Virus record (IMG/VR): IMGVR_UViG_3300036832_000373
Coordinates: 1 to 35,975 of that record
Length of the DNA: 35,975 nucleotides
From: a virus
Reading direction: 5' to 3' (one strand)
Position numbers and translations under genes: made by a program. The notes under the pieces are model-generated. The model had not been told where the DNA came from, made no database searches, and saw only the letters and a list, made by a program, of their open reading frames with translations. This document shows, in pieces, positions 9,290-29,950 of this stretch (its first letter is position 1; each line of letters begins with the position of its first letter).

Positions 9290-10794
9290 ATCAGCCGTTT
9301 CAGCCGCCGCCGGGCCTGAACGGCGCCGACACGACGTTTGCGGAAGAGGGTCAATGGCTCACAAGCTCGCTGATCCGCTTCTATAACGGCTCCTGGCAAA
9401 CGAAAGGCGGGTGGGAGCGGCTGACGCTGCAAAATCTAAAAGGCGTCTGCCGTTCGGCGATCAGTTGGACCGATTTCACCGATGTCCTGGCGTTCGCCTT
9501 CGGCGAGCATAACGGCTTGGAGGTGTGGCGGGACGGGCTGATTTACGACCTGACGCCTGCCGGGTGGACGAACGGCCAAATCGACGGAACCGGCGGACGC
9601 GGTTACGGAACCGGCGCCTGGGGCGTCGGCAATTATGGGGTCGAAAGCGCGACCGAATATTGGCCGCTGACGTGGAGTCTCGCGACCTGGGGCGATCAGT
9701 TGATAGCCAACCCGCGCAACCGGGGAATCTATCAATGGGACGGCACGTCGGGCCACGTGCTGACCCTGATTCCGAACGCTCCGGCGCAAGTGACTTACAC
9801 GCTGGTTGTGCCACAACGGCAAGTCCTGGCGCTTGGCTGCAATGAGGAAGTGTCTGGGGTTTTTGACCCTCTTTGCGTGCGCTGGAGCGATATCGAGGAC
9901 AATACGGATTGGAGTACGCTGCCGTCGAACAATGCCGGTGAATATATCCTTGAGAGTTTCGGCCGGATCGTGTGCGGCCGGGTGATCGGTGACTACGTTT
10001 TGATTTGGACGGCGACAAGCCTTTTCCTCGGAACCTTCCTCGGCAATCCCGGCCAAACCTGGAAATTCGAGCATATCGGGTCGAATTGTGGTGCGATTTC
10101 GCCCGGCGCCCCACTCGTCAAGAATATGAACGTCATGTGGATCGCGCAGGACTTGACGTTCTGGTCCTACAGCCTCGGCGGCGAACCGCAACAAATCACC
10201 TGTCCAATCCGCTCCGATTTTGCGGACTACATAACAGCCGGGCAGGCGGACAAGATTGTCTCTAGCGCGGTTTCTACGTTCCAAGAGATAGGGTGGTTCT
10301 ATCCGGATACCCGCGACGGCTTCGAATGTTCCCGCCAAGTCTGCCTAGGGCCGGACGGGTGGAACCGCGATCTGTTAGCGCGCACCGCGTTCATTGACGC
10401 CGGGCCACAATCGAACCCGGTCGGGGTGACGCCAACCGGGACGATCTATCTTCACGAAAAGGGTAATTCGGCGGACGGCGGCGCGATAACCGGATTCATC
10501 GAGAGCGCGGATTTCTACCTGGGCCAAGCTGAAGGCGGATTGATGGTCAATGGGGTGTGGCCGGACTTCAAGGATCAACAAGGGCCGGTCTCGATGACCC
10601 TGTATCTGCGCGATCATCCGCAAGCGGCGACGGTCCGCACGAAAGGGCCATTTGTCCTGACGCCGGGGATGGAACGGAAATCCCTGCGGGCGGCCGGGCG
10701 CATCGCTCGCTTGCGGTTTGACTTCTCGTCGTCTCCGGCCTTCGTGCGGGGCGGCAAGCCTGAGTTTGACCTTCAGCCTATCGGTGGCCGTTGA
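9286..10794 (+). CDS. Tail hub/head-closure protein candidate (P22 gp10-like)
   Basis: A 502-residue structural protein read from GTG 9286 (GTGA overlap with the fibre stop). The N-terminus NQPFQPPPGLNGADTTF, then SLIRFYNGSWQTKGGWERL and repeated short beta-strand units with aromatic residues, resembles beta-propeller-like tail proteins such as P22 gp10 and T7 gp12, which seal the portal and form the tail nozzle. P22 gp10 is about 470 residues. Its place next to the fibre and before ejection proteins agrees. The call is by pattern, not alignment. A longer reading from 9154 overlaps the fibre and lacks support. Confidence 0.6.
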   Translation: MNQPFQPPPGLNGADTTFAEEGQWLTSSLIRFYNGSWQTKGGWERLTLQNLKGVCRSAISWTDFTDVLAFAFGEHNGLEVWRDGLIYDLTPAGWTNGQIDGTGGRGYGTGAWGVGNYGVESATEYWPLTWSLATWGDQLIANPRNRGIYQWDGTSGHVLTLIPNAPAQVTYTLVVPQRQVLALGCNEEVSGVFDPLCVRWSDIEDNTDWSTLPSNNAGEYILESFGRIVCGRVIGDYVLIWTATSLFLGTFLGNPGQTWKFEHIGSNCGAISPGAPLVKNMNVMWIAQDLTFWSYSLGGEPQQITCPIRSDFADYITAGQADKIVSSAVSTFQEIGWFYPDTRDGFECSRQVCLGPDGWNRDLLARTAFIDAGPQSNPVGVTPTGTIYLHEKGNSADGGAITGFIESADFYLGQAEGGLMVNGVWPDFKDQQGPVSMTLYLRDHPQAATVRTKGPFVLTPGMERKSLRAAGRIARLRFDFSSSPAFVRGGKPEFDLQPIGGR

Positions 10795-17473: not shown

Positions 17474-17520
17474 CCAACTGTTTCGCTACGGATCGCCCCC
17501 GCCCGGTTAAATTGGTGGAA

Positions 17521-17542
17521 TTGTGTGGCAAACGGGTCACAA
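17521..17542. other. Candidate integrase core (attP) site
   Basis: TTGTG (17521-17525) and CACAA (17538-17542) form a short inverted repeat with a 12-base spacer, about 200 bases before the integrase. Tyrosine integrase crossover sites have this form and attP usually lies beside int. The repeats are short, so this is only a candidate within the non-coding stretch 17474-17748. Confidence 0.25.
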
Positions 17543-17601
17543 AGACAAAAAAGCCTAGGGAAATCAACGTCCCGGTTCTCCTGCACAAGGATATTTTCGG
17601 G

Positions 17602-17666
17602 GTCTAGGCGGCTCTACGGCGGTCCAGAGAAGTCCAGCAAGCCGTTGAAAAACAAGATGCATATTG
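17602..17666 (+). repeat. Four 10-bp direct repeats plus TGCATATTG box before integrase
   Basis: Four contiguous 10-base units lie head to tail: GTCTAGGCGG, CTCTACGGCG, GTCCAGAGAA and GTCCAGCAAG (17602-17641). The box TGCATATTG follows at 17658-17666, then ACCCG. The same arrangement occurs at 24519-24570. The 10-bp phase puts each unit on the same face of the helix, as expected for cooperative protein binding. The units could be an operator or activator site for int, or integrase arm-type sites. Confidence 0.65.
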
Positions 17667-17748
17667 CACCCGACGGGTAAGCCGTTCTATTCCCTTCTGA
17701 ACGCGGTTCCGCCCGTCCTGGGGGGAAGTTTTGGGAGGAAGGTCGGCC

Positions 17749-19083
17749 ATGGCGATTGAGAAAAAAGAGTTCAGGGCGCTGATGGGCGACGCGCCGAAAA
17801 TCAGCCGCAAAAACGGCGCCCCGCAAGCGACCGGCAAGGTCCATGACGGCGACGGGCTCTATCTGATCGTGGGCGAGAAAACGCAACGGTCCTGGCTGTT
17901 CCGGTTCACGTTCAACGGCAAGTCGGAAGACATGAATCTCGGGTCGGCGCACAAGCTCGATCTGAGCGGCGCCCGTAAGGAACGCGAGCGGTGTGAGGGA
18001 CTGATCGCCCAAAACATCAATCCGAAAAGCGAGCGCCAGCGGAGCAAGGCGGCCAAGCTGACGCCCGATCCGAAGTTGAAACATACGCTCTACGCGGTGG
18101 CCAAGCTGGCGGTCGTCAAGCTCGGGCCGAAGGGTGACGAACGGAAACACGAAGATGGGCGCCGCTATTGGCTGAACCGGCTGAAGCCGGAAAATACGGC
18201 GGGCCTGGGCGACATGCGCCCGGCGGATATCACCCGTATGGATGTGGTCCGCTGCCTCCAGGCGGTGCGCGAGCGCACGCCGAAGGGCGAGCAAATGCGG
18301 AAGGTGGAACAGCAACTTCGCCTGCTGTTCGAATGGTGCGCGGCGTCGGGCTACATTTCGGAAAACGCGCCCAATCCGGCGGATTTCAGGGCCGAACGGT
18401 TTCGCATGTTGGTGCCTGACGTGGCGCCGTCCGTGCCTCGTCCGGCGGTGCCCTGGCGTAAGGTCGGCGCCGTGGTGGCCGATCTGCGGGCGGGCGGTTC
18501 GATGTCGGCGCTGTGCACGGAATGGCTGCTGCTGTCGGTCGTGCGGGCGAGCAACGCGCTGTCGGCAAATTGGTCGGAAATCGACCTAGAGCGGAAGCTG
18601 TGGACGATCCCGGCGCATAAGATGAAGGTCAAGAAAGTCGGACCGCATAAGGTCCCGCTGACGGCGCGTCATCTTGAAATCCTGCAACTCGTCATGCCGA
18701 AGGATGGCAAGCCGCAATCCGGCCTGATTTTCCCGTCGCGCATCAACGGCGAAGTTATGGACGATCAAGCGCTGATCTACATTTTGAAGGAGGCCTATCC
18801 CGAACCGGTCGAACAAAGTGACGGGACGTTCGCCCAAGTGGTTCCGCATGGCCTGCGGACCACGTTTCGGACCTGGGGCGGTCAGCAAAATGACCCGGTG
18901 ACAGAACTGCCGATCTATCCGGAAAGCGTGTTGGAAGAGTGCATGGCGCACATTGTCGGCAATGCCGCCCGTAATGCCTATGTCCACGAAAACAACCTTC
19001 AGGCTCGGCGGACGATTCTAGAGGCGTGGGCCGCCTACGTGAGCAACCCGAACCCGAACGTCGTCGCGTTCCGCGCGGCCTAA
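17749..19083 (+). CDS. int: Tyrosine integrase, P4 type
   Basis: A 444-residue site-specific recombinase that inserts the phage into the host chromosome and, with an excisionase, removes it. The N-terminal arm-binding domain (DUF4102 type) shows GDGLYLIVGEKTQRSWLFRF and LGSAHKLDLSGAR. The catalytic domain has Arg266 (SVVRASNALSANWSEIDL), a Lys-containing turn before PHKVPLT, His367 and Arg370 (PHGLRTTFRTW), His401 (MAHIVGNAAR) and the nucleophile Tyr411 in the ARNAYVHENN context. Length is normal and all key residues are present. ATG 17749 is preferred to an upstream TTG because GGGAGG lies at 17733-17738. It converges with the - strand gene after it, overlapping by 4 bases. Confidence 0.93.
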   Translation: MAIEKKEFRALMGDAPKISRKNGAPQATGKVHDGDGLYLIVGEKTQRSWLFRFTFNGKSEDMNLGSAHKLDLSGARKERERCEGLIAQNINPKSERQRSKAAKLTPDPKLKHTLYAVAKLAVVKLGPKGDERKHEDGRRYWLNRLKPENTAGLGDMRPADITRMDVVRCLQAVRERTPKGEQMRKVEQQLRLLFEWCAASGYISENAPNPADFRAERFRMLVPDVAPSVPRPAVPWRKVGAVVADLRAGGSMSALCTEWLLLSVVRASNALSANWSEIDLERKLWTIPAHKMKVKKVGPHKVPLTARHLEILQLVMPKDGKPQSGLIFPSRINGEVMDDQALIYILKEAYPEPVEQSDGTFAQVVPHGLRTTFRTWGGQQNDPVTELPIYPESVLEECMAHIVGNAARNAYVHENNLQARRTILEAWAAYVSNPNPNVVAFRAA

Positions 19084-19919: not shown

Positions 19920-21005
19920 CTATGCCGTGCGCGCGTTCCAACCCTTTTTGCAGGGCGGGAACACGGCGCCGCGCGCTTTAGCCTCTTGCAAAGTGTCCTT
20001 CACGAATATCGGGGATTCCCCTGAGTTGGTGACGATTTGCGTCGGGTTGACTCCGGCCATGCGCTGTCGGGCGACGCTCTCTTTCACGTCTAGGTAAGCC
20101 TGGGGCGTGAGGTTACGGCGCTCGGCGGCTCGGCGGACCATGGCTTTGCTGGCGCCGGACAGGGCGTCAAAAGCGGCGAATACGGGCGTTAGCTGATGAA
20201 TGGTAGCGGAAGGCCGGTCGGGCGCCGGATCGGCCTGTACGGGCTTCTCTGGGGCACTGGCGGCCTGTTCAGCCTGGAAGCTCATGACACGCTCGGCATA
20301 GGGGACCTTCAACCCGGCGGCTCTGGCGTTGCTAAGCCAAAGGCTGATGGTCTTCTGATCGGTCTTTGTCGCCTTCTCCATTTCGTCGTAGCTGGCGCCC
20401 TTCTGGGCCATGTCCACGGCGAGTAACTTGCGGTCTAGGTACTGCTGCGGGCTGATCCCGCGAGCGGCGGCGGCAGCCTCAACGCGGCTGATCCCCTGGC
20501 CGCGCATGGTGTCCAGGGAGGTATGCCATTCTTTCCGCTCCATGGGCTGGCCGGTGTAGGAACCGCGCAGGCTGGGAAAGGTGATCCCAGCCTTTTTTGC
20601 CTCTGAAAGCATCCGGTCCACGTGAGAGCGGGGGATATGAAGGTCGGCCGCGATCTTCTGGGCGTGCTGACCCTTTTTCCGGCGCCGGATAACTTCGGCC
20701 TCGGGACTGTTTTCGACGGCTGATTTTGTCCCGCCTGGTGGCTTGCCTTGTTTGGCGGGTGACTCAAGCTGAGTCACGGGCGGCGCCCCGGCGGCGGTCA
20801 ATAGGGGGTCCGGCATGGCATACTCGGCCGGGGCGTTGCTGTACTGATCGGCGAGGGTCTTTGCGAGGTGGATCACGCTGGCGCGCATCGGACCCGGTGG
20901 GATGCGGCCGAAGGCGTCCAGTAGGTCGTTGAGGCCCGGCATGACGATGAATCGGGCGAAGGTGATCGGGTCGATTGCGTCGGTGGGCGGGGTCGGCTTG
21001 GTCAA
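19920..21005 (-). CDS. DNA-binding protein with three tandem HTH-like modules
   Basis: A 361-residue protein in which I see three related ~50-residue modules: ~101-146, ~184-238 and ~299-353. Each has a helix ending in a Gly turn (RRKKGQHAQKI, DMAQKGASYDEM, RQRMAGVNPTQI), a recognition-type helix and an end of the form LxxAKxxGxxFP (SEAKKAGITFP, SNARAAGLKVP, QEAKARGAVFP). Modules two and three are each preceded by AA-x(2)-RG/RN-x-S/T-PQ-x-YLD. Ala/Pro-rich linkers join them. It may bind repeated or extended sites as a regulator of lysogeny. The start is TTG 21005, with GGAG 8 bases upstream; an internal ATG at residue 22 is an alternative. No named family is recognised. Confidence 0.6.
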   Translation of the reverse strand: MTKPTPPTDAIDPITFARFIVMPGLNDLLDAFGRIPPGPMRASVIHLAKTLADQYSNAPAEYAMPDPLLTAAGAPPVTQLESPAKQGKPPGGTKSAVENSPEAEVIRRRKKGQHAQKIAADLHIPRSHVDRMLSEAKKAGITFPSLRGSYTGQPMERKEWHTSLDTMRGQGISRVEAAAAARGISPQQYLDRKLLAVDMAQKGASYDEMEKATKTDQKTISLWLSNARAAGLKVPYAERVMSFQAEQAASAPEKPVQADPAPDRPSATIHQLTPVFAAFDALSGASKAMVRRAAERRNLTPQAYLDVKESVARQRMAGVNPTQIVTNSGESPIFVKDTLQEAKARGAVFPPCKKGWNARTA

Positions 21006-21008
21006 GGG

Positions 21009-21218
21009 TTAGGCTCCGTGTGGTCGATGGGCTTTCGGGTATCTCGCGCGCCACGCTTCTAGGTCTTTGACGAAGTACCGGGTTTTGCGCGGGCTGGGCT
21101 GGTAATAGACCGGCCCCCGGCCAAGGCGCCGGAGGCGGAACAGGGACGCCGGGCTTATATCGAGATAAGCGGCGGCTTCCCTGGTCGATAGCGAACGGTC
21201 GTTGGCGAGACTAGGCAC
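21009..21218 (-). CDS. AlpA/excisionase-like HTH protein
   Basis: A 69-residue protein with an HTH of the HTH_17/AlpA type: LSTREAAAYLDISPASLFRL, then RRLGRGPVYYQPSPRKTRYF and VKDLEAWRA. Such proteins serve as excisionases or as small transcription factors. GTG start 21218 lies 3 bases after the upstream gene's stop. Two candidate excisionases in one operon means their roles cannot be told apart by sequence. Confidence 0.7.
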   Translation of the reverse strand: MPSLANDRSLSTREAAAYLDISPASLFRLRRLGRGPVYYQPSPRKTRYFVKDLEAWRARYPKAHRPHGA

Positions 21219-21221
21219 GGC

Positions 21222-21485
21222 TTACAGCCAAGTTTCGAGGATGACCGGATCATCGGACGGATGCCGGGCAAGCCTCACAAGGCCGAGAGATTCAAGGGTT
21301 CGCCGTAAGCGATCTAGGTCGGGGTCGGCCATGAATATCGGCGCAATTTCGTGATCTGGTAGGCTAAAGCATAGCCGGGCCACGTAATCGTTCGGAAAGT
21401 CGGTCGGATGATCGGTCACGGTGAACATGGGCAAGCGGTGATGCTTGACCGTGAGAATTTCGCGAAGGTCATCGAGACTAGCCAC
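21222..21485 (-). CDS. Small hypothetical protein in regulatory operon
   Basis: An 87-residue protein with a GTG start overlapping the stop of the repressor candidate by 8 bases. It looks like a mixed alpha/beta fold (RLPMFTVTDHPTDFPNDYVA) with a C-terminal helix and strand. Two His in VKHHRLP could be structural. There is no DNA-binding motif. Co-expression with the HTH genes is implied by spacing. Function unknown. Confidence 0.45.
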   Translation of the reverse strand: MASLDDLREILTVKHHRLPMFTVTDHPTDFPNDYVARLCFSLPDHEIAPIFMADPDLDRLRRTLESLGLVRLARHPSDDPVILETWL

Positions 21486-21915
21486 GGCGAATCCAAGGCC
21501 GTTCCCAACCGATGACCGCCATGACCGTGTTCATGGTGATGTTCTGGGGGCGACGGGTCTCGCCATAATACCAATTCAGGAGGGTATAGCGGCTGACCTT
21601 GTGGCCGGTCTTTTCGGTCTCGGCCTCGATCTGCTCCAGAGTCATCCCGCTCTCTTCGATGGCGAATTTCACCATGTCCAATTCGGGGTCCTTATCCACG
21701 AAGGAATAAGCAAGCCAACTTTGCGCGGGGATGAAATTCGCATGACTGTGCGGAAGAGGCTTGGCCCATTTCGCGTTGCTGCGGTGCGCGGCGAGTTGCG
21801 GGTTCGTGGTCGTCGTCGGCATGGCGCCGCCTTTCTTCGCGGCGGTCTGAGCGTCGCGCTGTTCTACCTTGGCGAGGAAAGCGCTGTGGTCCGTAATCCG
21901 GGCCTGACCTTGCAT
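21478..21915 (-). CDS. XRE-type HTH protein, repressor candidate
   Basis: A 145-residue protein with a disordered first ~60 residues and a C-terminal HTH resembling Cro/CI-type proteins: SGMTLEQIEAETEKTGHKVS as the first helices, RYTLLNWYYGETRRPQNITM as the recognition helix and turn, then NTVMAVIGWERPW. ATG 21915 has AAAGGAA at proper spacing. No protease-type C-terminal domain (LexA/CI S24) is present, so, if it is the lysogeny repressor, it is not cleaved in the usual SOS way. It faces leftward, opposite the Cro-like gene at 24650. Confidence 0.6.
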   Translation of the reverse strand: MQGQARITDHSAFLAKVEQRDAQTAAKKGGAMPTTTTNPQLAAHRSNAKWAKPLPHSHANFIPAQSWLAYSFVDKDPELDMVKFAIEESGMTLEQIEAETEKTGHKVSRYTLLNWYYGETRRPQNITMNTVMAVIGWERPWIRRG

Positions 21916-23789: not shown

Positions 23790-24071
23790 CTAGACGTGGC
23801 CCCAACGGGCGCGGGCCGCCTGTCGGGCAATCTCTCGGCGGCGCTCGGGCGTAAGGTTTTCGGCGCGTTTATGGCCGCCCGCCTGGCGGCCGGGGATTTT
23901 CGGTTTCCGGGGCGCGCAGATAACGCACATGACGCCGTGTATTTCGTACTCCGTGCCGGGGTGCTTCCTGGCGCGGGCTTCGGCGATGTGGGCGGCAAGG
24001 TGGAAGCTGCTCCACTCGCCGGGAATCCATCGGCCGCCGGTCTTCCAGATTTTGAAATAGAGCGGCGTCAT
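23790..24071 (-). CDS. Small Cys-Arg-rich protein, paralogue A
   Basis: A 93-residue protein; ATG 24071 overlaps the preceding gene's stop as ATGA and has AGGA upstream. Order: aromatic N-terminus (YFKIWKTGGRWIPGEWSSF), AHIAEARARKHPGTEYEIH, a CVIC pair (VMCVICAPRKPKIPGRQAG) and a basic helical tail (ERRREIARQAARARWGHV). It shares layout with the neighbouring gene 24068-24400, so the two are probably duplicated. The Cys pair could hold a metal; no family known. Confidence 0.5.
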   Translation of the reverse strand: MTPLYFKIWKTGGRWIPGEWSSFHLAAHIAEARARKHPGTEYEIHGVMCVICAPRKPKIPGRQAGGHKRAENLTPERRREIARQAARARWGHV

Positions 24072-24400
24072 GATCCTGACCAATGAACGGCGGCGCCGGT
24101 CCGGCACGCCTCACAGTAGCGCTCGGCGGTATCCCATCGCCCGTCTGGTTGCTTCCATCGCGCTTCCGCCGCGACGCGCGAGGCACGGCGCCGCCGTTGG
24201 ACGTGGGTGTTGACGAGGGCCGTTTCGGCGGCGAGGTCGGGCGGATAAGGCGGGCGTTTTTCGCTGGCGCAAATGACATATTCCATGCCGCGATTGCGCT
24301 GGGCGAGGCGGGCGATAGCTAGTCCGGCCGGACCGGCGCCATAGTGGACATTCACGGGCGGGCTCCCCTTCCGGTAAACCCAAAAAAGTTGCTGGGGCAT
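24068..24400 (-). CDS. Small Cys-Arg-rich protein, paralogue B
   Basis: A 110-residue protein starting at ATG 24400 (an upstream extension lacks support). It shares layout with 23790-24071: aromatic start (LFWVYRKGSPP), helix with AIARLAQRNRGMEYVICASE, a Pro-rich turn, then a basic helix (RRRRASRVAAEARWKQP). A second Cys pair (RYCEAC) follows near the C-terminus. First gene of the leftward operon, so probably expressed from a promoter in 24401-24649. Function unknown. Confidence 0.5.
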   Translation of the reverse strand: MPQQLFWVYRKGSPPVNVHYGAGPAGLAIARLAQRNRGMEYVICASEKRPPYPPDLAAETALVNTHVQRRRRASRVAAEARWKQPDGRWDTAERYCEACRTGAAVHWSGS

Positions 24401-24649
24401 GGTGCTGCACCGCGACAATCCGCACCTGTCGGAATTAGACCCGAAATCAGGACGAGGCGATAACCTGCATCCCGGTTTCACAGGAATGTTATTCCCTGCA
24501 ATCTGGTAGATTTAGAGTGTCCAGAGGCGTCTAGTGGCGTCTAGCGGCGCTCTGTGGCTGGTGCATATTGTAACCCGGAACAAATCGGGGGGCGTCGGGT
24601 GAATCTCTGCTTGATGTAACCCGCTGGCCGGGCGGAATATCGCACCCTT
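24401..24649. promoter_or_regulatory. Divergent control region (genetic switch)
   Basis: A 249-base non-coding stretch between divergent operons: leftward lysogeny genes and rightward early genes. It holds a direct-repeat array (24519-24570) and two copies of TGTAACCCG (24569-24577 and 24615-24623) 46 bases apart, as expected for operators. An AT-rich stretch with ATTCCCTGCAATC lies before the array. I could not place a clear sigma-70 -35/-10 pair on either strand. This is the best candidate site for repressor/Cro competition. Confidence 0.55.
24519..24570 (+). repeat. 10-bp direct repeats plus TGCATATTG box, second copy
   Basis: Units GTCCAGAGGC, GTCTAGTGGC and GTCTAGCGGC and a degenerate fourth, GCTCTGTGGC, lie back to back at 24519-24558; TGCATATTG follows at 24562-24570 and then TAACCCG. 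This matches the array before the integrase in unit length, core GTCYAG and following box. The box ends 79 bases before the Cro-like start, against 82 bases before the integrase start. Confidence 0.65.
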
Positions 24650-24865
24650 ATGCGCTCCCATGCTCAAATCATTCGCGACGCGGGCGGCTATCGCGCCGTG
24701 TATGTCAAGTTGCACTGGAAAGGCAAAATCCACACGGTCAAGTCGTGGGTGCTACGCGACAATATTCCGGCGGAACACTGGCGCGCGTTGGTCGATCTGG
24801 GGCTTTGCACCCTGGATGAATTGGCGACGGCGCTAGCGATCAAAAAGTATCGGGCGGCAAGCTGA
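24650..24865 (+). CDS. Cro-like HTH protein
   Basis: A 71-residue, probably DNA-binding protein and the first gene of the rightward operon. The pattern AQIIRDAGGYRAVYVKLHWK, then HTVKSWVLRDNIPAEHWRAL fits the YdaS/Cro-like small repressors, where an HTH is followed by a W-containing helix and IPxEHW. With a repressor candidate on the opposite strand it probably forms the lytic side of the switch. No clear ribosome site precedes ATG 24650, so a leaderless transcript is possible. Confidence 0.7.
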   Translation: MRSHAQIIRDAGGYRAVYVKLHWKGKIHTVKSWVLRDNIPAEHWRALVDLGLCTLDELATALAIKKYRAAS

Positions 24866-29794: not shown

Positions 29795-29950
29795 GAAAGC
29801 GTTCGCGAAAGCGTTCGTGCGAAAGCGTTCAAGCGTTGGGCTGAAAGCGGTGCAGATTGTCGCGAAAGCGTTCAAACGGAAAAGTCCAATGAAACCAATG
29901 AATTCAGGCCTGAAATTCAAACCGATTGAACGCTTTCGGGGTGCAGATTG
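29795..29950 (+). repeat. Iteron cluster, candidate replication origin
   Basis: Four direct copies of GAAAGCGTTC at 29795-29804, 29807-29816, 29821-29830 and 29864-29873, and an inverted copy GAACGCTTTC at 29929-29938. GTGCAGATTG occurs twice, at 29850-29859 and 29941-29950. Between 29880 and 29935 the bases are AT-richer than nearby. Repeats just after the replication gene, with an easily melted stretch, are the usual form of an origin bound by its own initiator or helicase loader. Confidence 0.6.

Follow-up and report, generated by a model that had tools for sequence, protein, structure and literature searches.

Matched 10-bp repeat arrays upstream of the integrase and cro-like genes of P22/Sf6-type phages as candidate operators of an excisionase-type protein

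Why would a phage carry the same array of short direct repeats upstream of both its integrase gene and its cro-like gene? The stretch of DNA in which this arrangement was noticed (the window) spans a whole IMG/VR virus record, which is 35,975 bases long and has no terminal repeats, and we refer to its phage as W and to its relatives, or their IMG/VR loci, by L-numbers. W encodes an Sf6-type small terminase, a large terminase and a P22-type portal, as well as a primase/helicase, a RuvC-like resolvase and a C5-cytosine methyltransferase. A tyrosine integrase, which by profile match carries Arm-DNA-bind_3 (P4-type), is encoded at 17749-19083 (plus strand, ATG at 17749), and a gene at 24650-24865 (plus strand, ATG at 24650), which opens the rightward early operon, encodes a 71-aa Cro-like protein. 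The leftward genes, read from the cro side towards int, are p105, the methyltransferase, p211, p145, a 69-aa HTH_17 gene, a gene for a protein with three HTH modules, a membrane-like gene and a 66-aa AlpA-like gene that converges on the int end. On the cro side, leftward reading frames at 24068-24481 and 23790-24107 (both minus strand) overlap, and from the weak likeness of the upstream stretch to p105 (35% identity) it appears that p105 may have been duplicated in W.

The int-side array occupies 17602-17641 (plus strand) and consists of four contiguous 10-bp units, GTCTAGGCGG CTCTACGGCG GTCCAGAGAA GTCCAGCAAG, which we regard as putative RDF operators in attP or at the int promoter. The cro-side array at 24519-24558 (plus strand) points towards cro and reads GTCCAGAGGC GTCTAGTGGC GTCTAGCGGC GCTCTGTGGC. 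The original prediction had counted four GTCYAG-N4 units at each locus, and while its coordinates hold, only three of the four units per array are exact, starting at 17602, 17622 and 17632 at int and at 24519, 24529 and 24539 at cro. The misfits are the second int unit, CTCTAC (GTCTAC in L004), and the fourth cro unit, GCTCTG; each locus has three good units at a 10-bp period, which at int are units 1, 3 and 4 of the four. A TGCATATTG box indeed follows each array, at 17658 and 24562, and is itself followed by ACCCG 1 and 2 bases downstream, both as predicted. The claim of equal spacing is borne out from the box to the start codon (82 and 79 bases) but not from the array to the box, where the gap is 16 bp at int as compared to 3 bp at cro when four units are counted.

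These repeats are well in excess of what the composition of the window would provide. GTCYAGN4GTCYAG with at most one mismatch was observed three times in the window against 0.21 expected, always within the two arrays, which also account for 6 of the 25 plus-strand GTCYAG words. A matrix of the int array scored 17.6 at the cro array and 10.8 at the next-best site in the window. Taken alone, the cro array lies beyond all of 300 dinucleotide shuffles, and the int array is of modest significance by the same kind of shuffling (P 0.033); it becomes convincing because it is conserved at the same position in relatives.

These relatives form a syntenic family of temperate, uncultured phages that was gathered by searches with Int and then with p145, using tblastn maps. 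No match for p145 was found in the bacterial genomes, isolated phages or prophages searched, nor was the three-HTH protein matched in the isolated phages, among which Int identity was below 30% in the matches listed; a scan with Cro for more members of the clade found none. Within the family, 10-bp direct-repeat arrays are present at both the int and the cro places in six syntenic IMG/VR phages, and the absence of the arrays from related phages, which the original prediction had named as grounds for giving it up, was not seen. An int array lies at the matching place in L004, L005, L008, L009, L010, L011 and L038. In an automated search the best three units at a lag of 10 fell between -150 and -127 from the int start in W, L004, L008, L009, L010, L011 and L038, with single-phage P values of about 0.03-0.05 except for L009, the arrays of L010 and L011 not being significant on their own. 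None of 300 shuffles reached the cro-side arrays of W, L008, L009 and L011. An int array is also present in L014 and L013, in which cro is, by our reading, flanked by a divergent CI-like gene, and no cro array was found in these two phages.

The spelling of the unit changes from phage to phage, being GTCYAG in W, TGACGT within GCCCTGACGT in L009, GGTCGG/GTTCGG in L011, GTTCGTAA in L008 and GTTCGT in L005, and it changes at both places together. When the int matrices were scored against the cro regions, the assignment of each matrix to its own phage was the best of 720 permutations and was still the best of 120 with either L004 or W left out; this matching rests on the six phages having both arrays, with units that were picked by eye before scoring and whose array position agrees with the automated scan. 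Indeed, the best site outside the int array was upstream of cro in W, L008, L009, L011 and L005, and scans of the DNA available for each phage returned int, cro and little else beyond arrays at p211. The latter are weaker arrays that precede the p211 operon in L005 (L024 8489-8528) and L011 (L031 14431-14460). L004 is the weak case, with an int array nearly identical to that of W and a different cro array (GTCCAT/GTTCAT; own score 9.3, shuffle P 0.07), which fits the L008 matrix better than its own. The common position of the two arrays and the own-phage spelling that they share are direct observations, as is the conserved attP-like anatomy described below. Agreement in spelling between two separate sites, with a spelling that differs from one phage to the next, marks the action of a single sequence-specific protein at both, and the predicted link between integration and the switch through a shared regulatory site is supported by the six phages with arrays of own-phage spelling at both places.

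Orientation at the switch varies as well. A single cro-side array oriented towards cro is found in W and L004, and two cro-side arrays, leftward-pointing and about 90-123 bp apart, are found in L005, L008, L009 and L011; the far one lies ~90-100 bp before p105 in L005, L009 and L011. It had also been proposed that recombination between the two copies could exchange the intervening 6.9-kb block as a cassette, an idea that we reject, since the longest exact word that the copies share in the same direction is 9 bp and the arrays are opposed in four of the six phages (L005, L008, L009 and L011). In two cousins, L022 and L023 (records G008 and G007), the place of the array beside cro is, by our reading, taken by palindromic motifs and a divergent CI-like gene, hinting that one switch type was replaced by another.

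Which protein, then, reads the arrays? Our best explanation, to which we give a probability of roughly 0.6, is that they are operators of a single small winged-helix protein of the excisionase type (RDF) that the phage itself encodes, most likely the 66-aa AlpA/HTH_17-like product of 19280-19080 (minus strand), whose gene is convergent with int. In W this protein has weak profile scores (HTH_17 E 0.1; phrog_2907 E 0.007), and its relatives reach significance, for example L025 with HTH_17 (5e-8), L038 with phrog_4691 (4e-5) and L033 with phrog_66 (5e-5). Its AF2 model (pLDDT 82) has Foldseek/VIA matches that include BldC, in a complex bound to direct-repeat DNA, the GIsul2 excisionase, RdfS and Pukovnik Xis, at structural Z values below 8 and with MerR-like proteins scoring alike. 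The recognition helix is variable and the gene adjoins int in relatives; the L004 protein is 62% identical to that of W despite the differing cro array. The gene closes the leftward operon and is not first in the early lytic operon, the first rightward gene being the Cro-like one; an RDF gene in that first position is the rule in P2-like phages and P4, not among RDFs at large. We infer the identity of the binder, its binding to the arrays and the direction of the regulation. The DNA contacts of such a binder should vary along with the arrays, and because the recognition regions of the XRE-like p145 (145 aa, 21478-21915, minus strand) and of the Cro-like protein hardly vary, both are disfavoured as readers of the variable array. 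Mantel tests of protein distance against array distance were significant through the close pairs W/L004 and L010/L011 only, and are thus uninformative, singling out no protein.

A second HTH_17 protein of 69 aa (21009-21218, minus strand), assigned to phrog_66 (excisionase and transcriptional regulator), could instead bind one or both arrays of W, leaving the 66-aa protein as RDF only or as neither. Its HTH_17 and phrog_66 matches are stronger than those of the 66-aa protein, and its gene was found only in W and L004, the two phages in which the cro array is directed towards cro; the cro arrays of these two are not alike. However, int and cro arrays still match in relatives that lack this gene, and a different protein must therefore be the general binder. 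We accordingly think it unlikely that the 69-aa protein explains the arrays, and nevertheless take it seriously as the runner-up for the cro array.

The surroundings of the int array resemble an attP site. In an alignment of the region upstream of int from nine phages, the order of elements is constant: a pair of G-rich repeats that comes with an inverted repeat (TGTGGGAAA..GCCACA type), then AAATCAACG, the 10-bp array, the ATTGCACC box, in several phages a GTAAGTCGTTC-like sequence, and a second G-rich pair directly before the int start codon. In W the left pair of ~12-bp repeats (GGTGGAATTGTG TGGCAAACGG) lies at 17514-17535 (plus strand) and overlaps an inverted repeat TTGTG...CACAA at 17521-17542, and the right pair (GGGGGAAGTTTT GGGAGGAAGG) lies at 17721-17742 (plus strand). 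Left and right pairs match within phages (permutation P 0.002; 20/22 in L042), and by analogy with known attachment sites these pairs flanking the array are probably Int arm-type sites. The conserved AAATCAACG at 17561-17569 (plus strand) corresponds to one half of a motif that we take to be like the IHF consensus WATCAAnnnnTTR, and it is assigned as an IHF-like site by analogy. The int array would thus probably be situated inside attP, between the P and P' arm pairs. We deduce attP from this anatomy because a search for prophages and hosts with Int and p145 across bacterial genomes found none; neither attB nor an att core was found. A C-run/G-run stem-loop just before the int start codon (17710-17725) overlaps the right G-rich pair; it is conserved in relatives through changes in both of its arms (CACCCATTTTGGGTGG in L004, CCCCCGATCCGGGGG in L005) and possibly exerts translational control of int. 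In L050 a tRNA-Thr(TGT) gene lies at 9964-10039, ~1.9 kb upstream of int, and its anticodon arm shares GTAAGCCGTT with positions 17677-17686 of the window; a role for GTAAGCCGTT as an att core in a tRNA anticodon loop was unsupported in a scan of the viral contigs, which found no tRNAs at the loci scanned.

This anatomy bears on the alternative, raised in the original prediction, that the arrays are themselves integrase arm-type sites, with the N-terminal domain of Int binding the array in attP and Int also binding upstream of cro. Contiguous arm-type direct repeats near int are found in lambda as P'1-P'3, which the 10-bp repeats recall, yet here it is the other, G-rich pair that is present on both flanks and that matches left to right within phages, as expected of an arm layout, and the 10-bp array forms a single block upstream of int instead of lying on both sides of a core. 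Arm sites would also suit the presence of IHF-like AAATCAACG between the left repeats and the array, and the finding that W and L004 have nearly identical int arrays and Int proteins that are 94% identical while their HTH proteins have diverged. At cro, however, the G-rich pairs are absent, so that the protein shared by the two places need not be Int, and we know of no precedent for Int arm sites at a lysis-lysogeny switch. We favour the RDF reading since the spacing of the array and the spelling in relatives match known RDF sites, and consider it improbable that the arrays are arm sites.

The box that follows the arrays appears to be a separate element, either an operator or a part of a promoter. 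It is located at 17658-17666 near int (plus strand; near-palindromic ATGCATATTGCAC, kept in relatives as approximately CATATTGCACC) and at 24562-24570 before the Cro-like gene (plus strand; GTGCATATTGTAACC). There are just two exact copies of TGCATATTG in the window versus 0.12 expected, and four of TGCAKATTG versus 0.31 expected, at int, at cro, and at 29851 and 29942 in a repeat-rich stretch past the primase gene. The box is almost palindromic (GTGCAnnnTGCAC), and perfectly so before cro in L011. Because its spelling is constant while that of the arrays varies, the box probably has a conserved reader other than that of the arrays; the GTGCAnnnTGCAC-like sequence is more likely to be recognized by another conserved protein, for which p145 is a candidate, or by RNA polymerase. 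The repeat-rich stretch itself (29795-29950), just after the primase/helicase gene, contains four copies of GAAAGCGTTC (29795, 29807, 29821 and 29864), one more in inverted orientation at 29928 and two GGTGCAGATTG boxes (29849 and 29940), and resembles an origin of the iteron type or an operator region.

Were the TGCATATTG box a promoter -10 element, the arrays could be sites of a CII-like or other activator with no role in excision. The arrays are placed about 90-115 bp before the int and cro starts and comparably before the leftward p105 operon (L005, L009 and L011) and p211 (L005 and L011), a similar box follows the far array in L009, and slightly less than 30 bp separate the start of the last int unit from the box; however, the sites of TorI and Apl at the promoters of int and of the switch explain the same geometry. 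Scans for sigma-70 promoters at the int and cro loci found none, and array orientation relative to cro varies, leaving an activator very unlikely. Finally, the three-HTH-module protein (361 aa, 19920-21005, minus strand) is family-wide and could in principle match its three modules to the three good units per array, one module for each of three consecutive units, but this is highly improbable given that L010 and L011 share an int array and differ in module 2 (and module 1), and that W, L004, L009 and L010 have a nearly invariant module 2 (KTISLWLSNAR) despite differing arrays. A comparison of the L010 (L028 990-2114) and L011 (L031 12040-13200) versions of this protein, whose ends are alike and whose modules 1 and 2 are very different, is suggestive of a module swap.

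If the arrays are operators of an excisionase-type protein, this RDF would stack head to tail on the 10-bp direct repeats, with one molecule per turn. At int it would bind within attP beside the int promoter, bending the DNA for excision and repressing int, and at cro its binding site would lie immediately ahead of the lytic promoter, whose activity the protein would tune or repress. One protein would thereby govern both excision and the switch, as Apl does in 186. A bolder possibility, which we regard as doubtful, is that RDF arrays have replaced the usual operators as the main switch operators in this clade, which has no divergent CI-type gene and palindromic operators beside cro, making an excisionase-type filament the master early regulator. 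On that reading RDF arrays might, tentatively, also serve two leftward promoters in some members, and, just as speculatively, site spelling and orientation might evolve in concert at all RDF promoters.

The known cases of dual-use excisionases are mostly from P2/186 and P4, and the candidates described here come from P22/Sf6-type phages with a P4-type integrase, with a layout that can be traced through at least six genomes. Operators that change their spelling jointly at int and cro, and even flip direction, amount to a natural experiment on the co-evolution of an RDF and its operators. The family also informs how a phage runs its switch without the usual CI beside Cro.

The proposal has several parallels among known systems. 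RDFs bind direct repeats one helical turn apart, and some bind both att and the switch (PMC7498355). For example, Apl of 186 has five sites at att and seven between pR and pL, represses both promoters and requires three adjacent sites for binding (PMC7498355). Like those of the W family, these sites are direct repeats of a short operator at 10-11 bp; they are found at the lytic/lysogenic switch and at attP, within which the int array of the W family probably lies, and one RDF does both jobs, as is proposed here. Apl differs in its face-to-face promoters, whereas the W family has 3-4 units per array, divergent genes round the switch and up to two arrays there; moreover, the candidate gene of the W family is next to int, where the leftward operon ends, whereas apl and cox each head the lytic operon. 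PMC7498355 also cites P2 Cox and P4 Vis as RDFs that regulate promoters away from att through recognition sequences similar at both places, but they belong to other phage families and have other RDF sequences, and P2 int is on the lysogenic transcript.

TorI of KplE1 recognizes three consecutive sites, spaced by 2 nt (GTTCG, GATCG and GTCCG), in the att region upstream of intS, which it represses (PMC2951348), and a TorI RDF is also found in the recombination module of HK620 and Sf6 (PMC3509656). Similarly, the units of L005, L008, L011 and L014 contain TorI pentamers, units of the relatives including GTTCG, GTCCG and GACCG, and W carries P22/Sf6-type packaging genes. W differs in its GTCYAG unit and in its AlpA/HTH_17-like RDF candidate, and the parts of PMC2951348 and PMC3509656 used here describe no TorI array at a switch. 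RdfS of ICEMlSymR7A binds attP upstream of intS plus other promoters (PMC11963761). While no consensus repeat was found for RdfS and the W arrays have clear repeats, RdfS is, as is proposed for the 66-aa candidate, a small winged-helix RDF, and one that forms head-to-tail filaments (PMC11963761).
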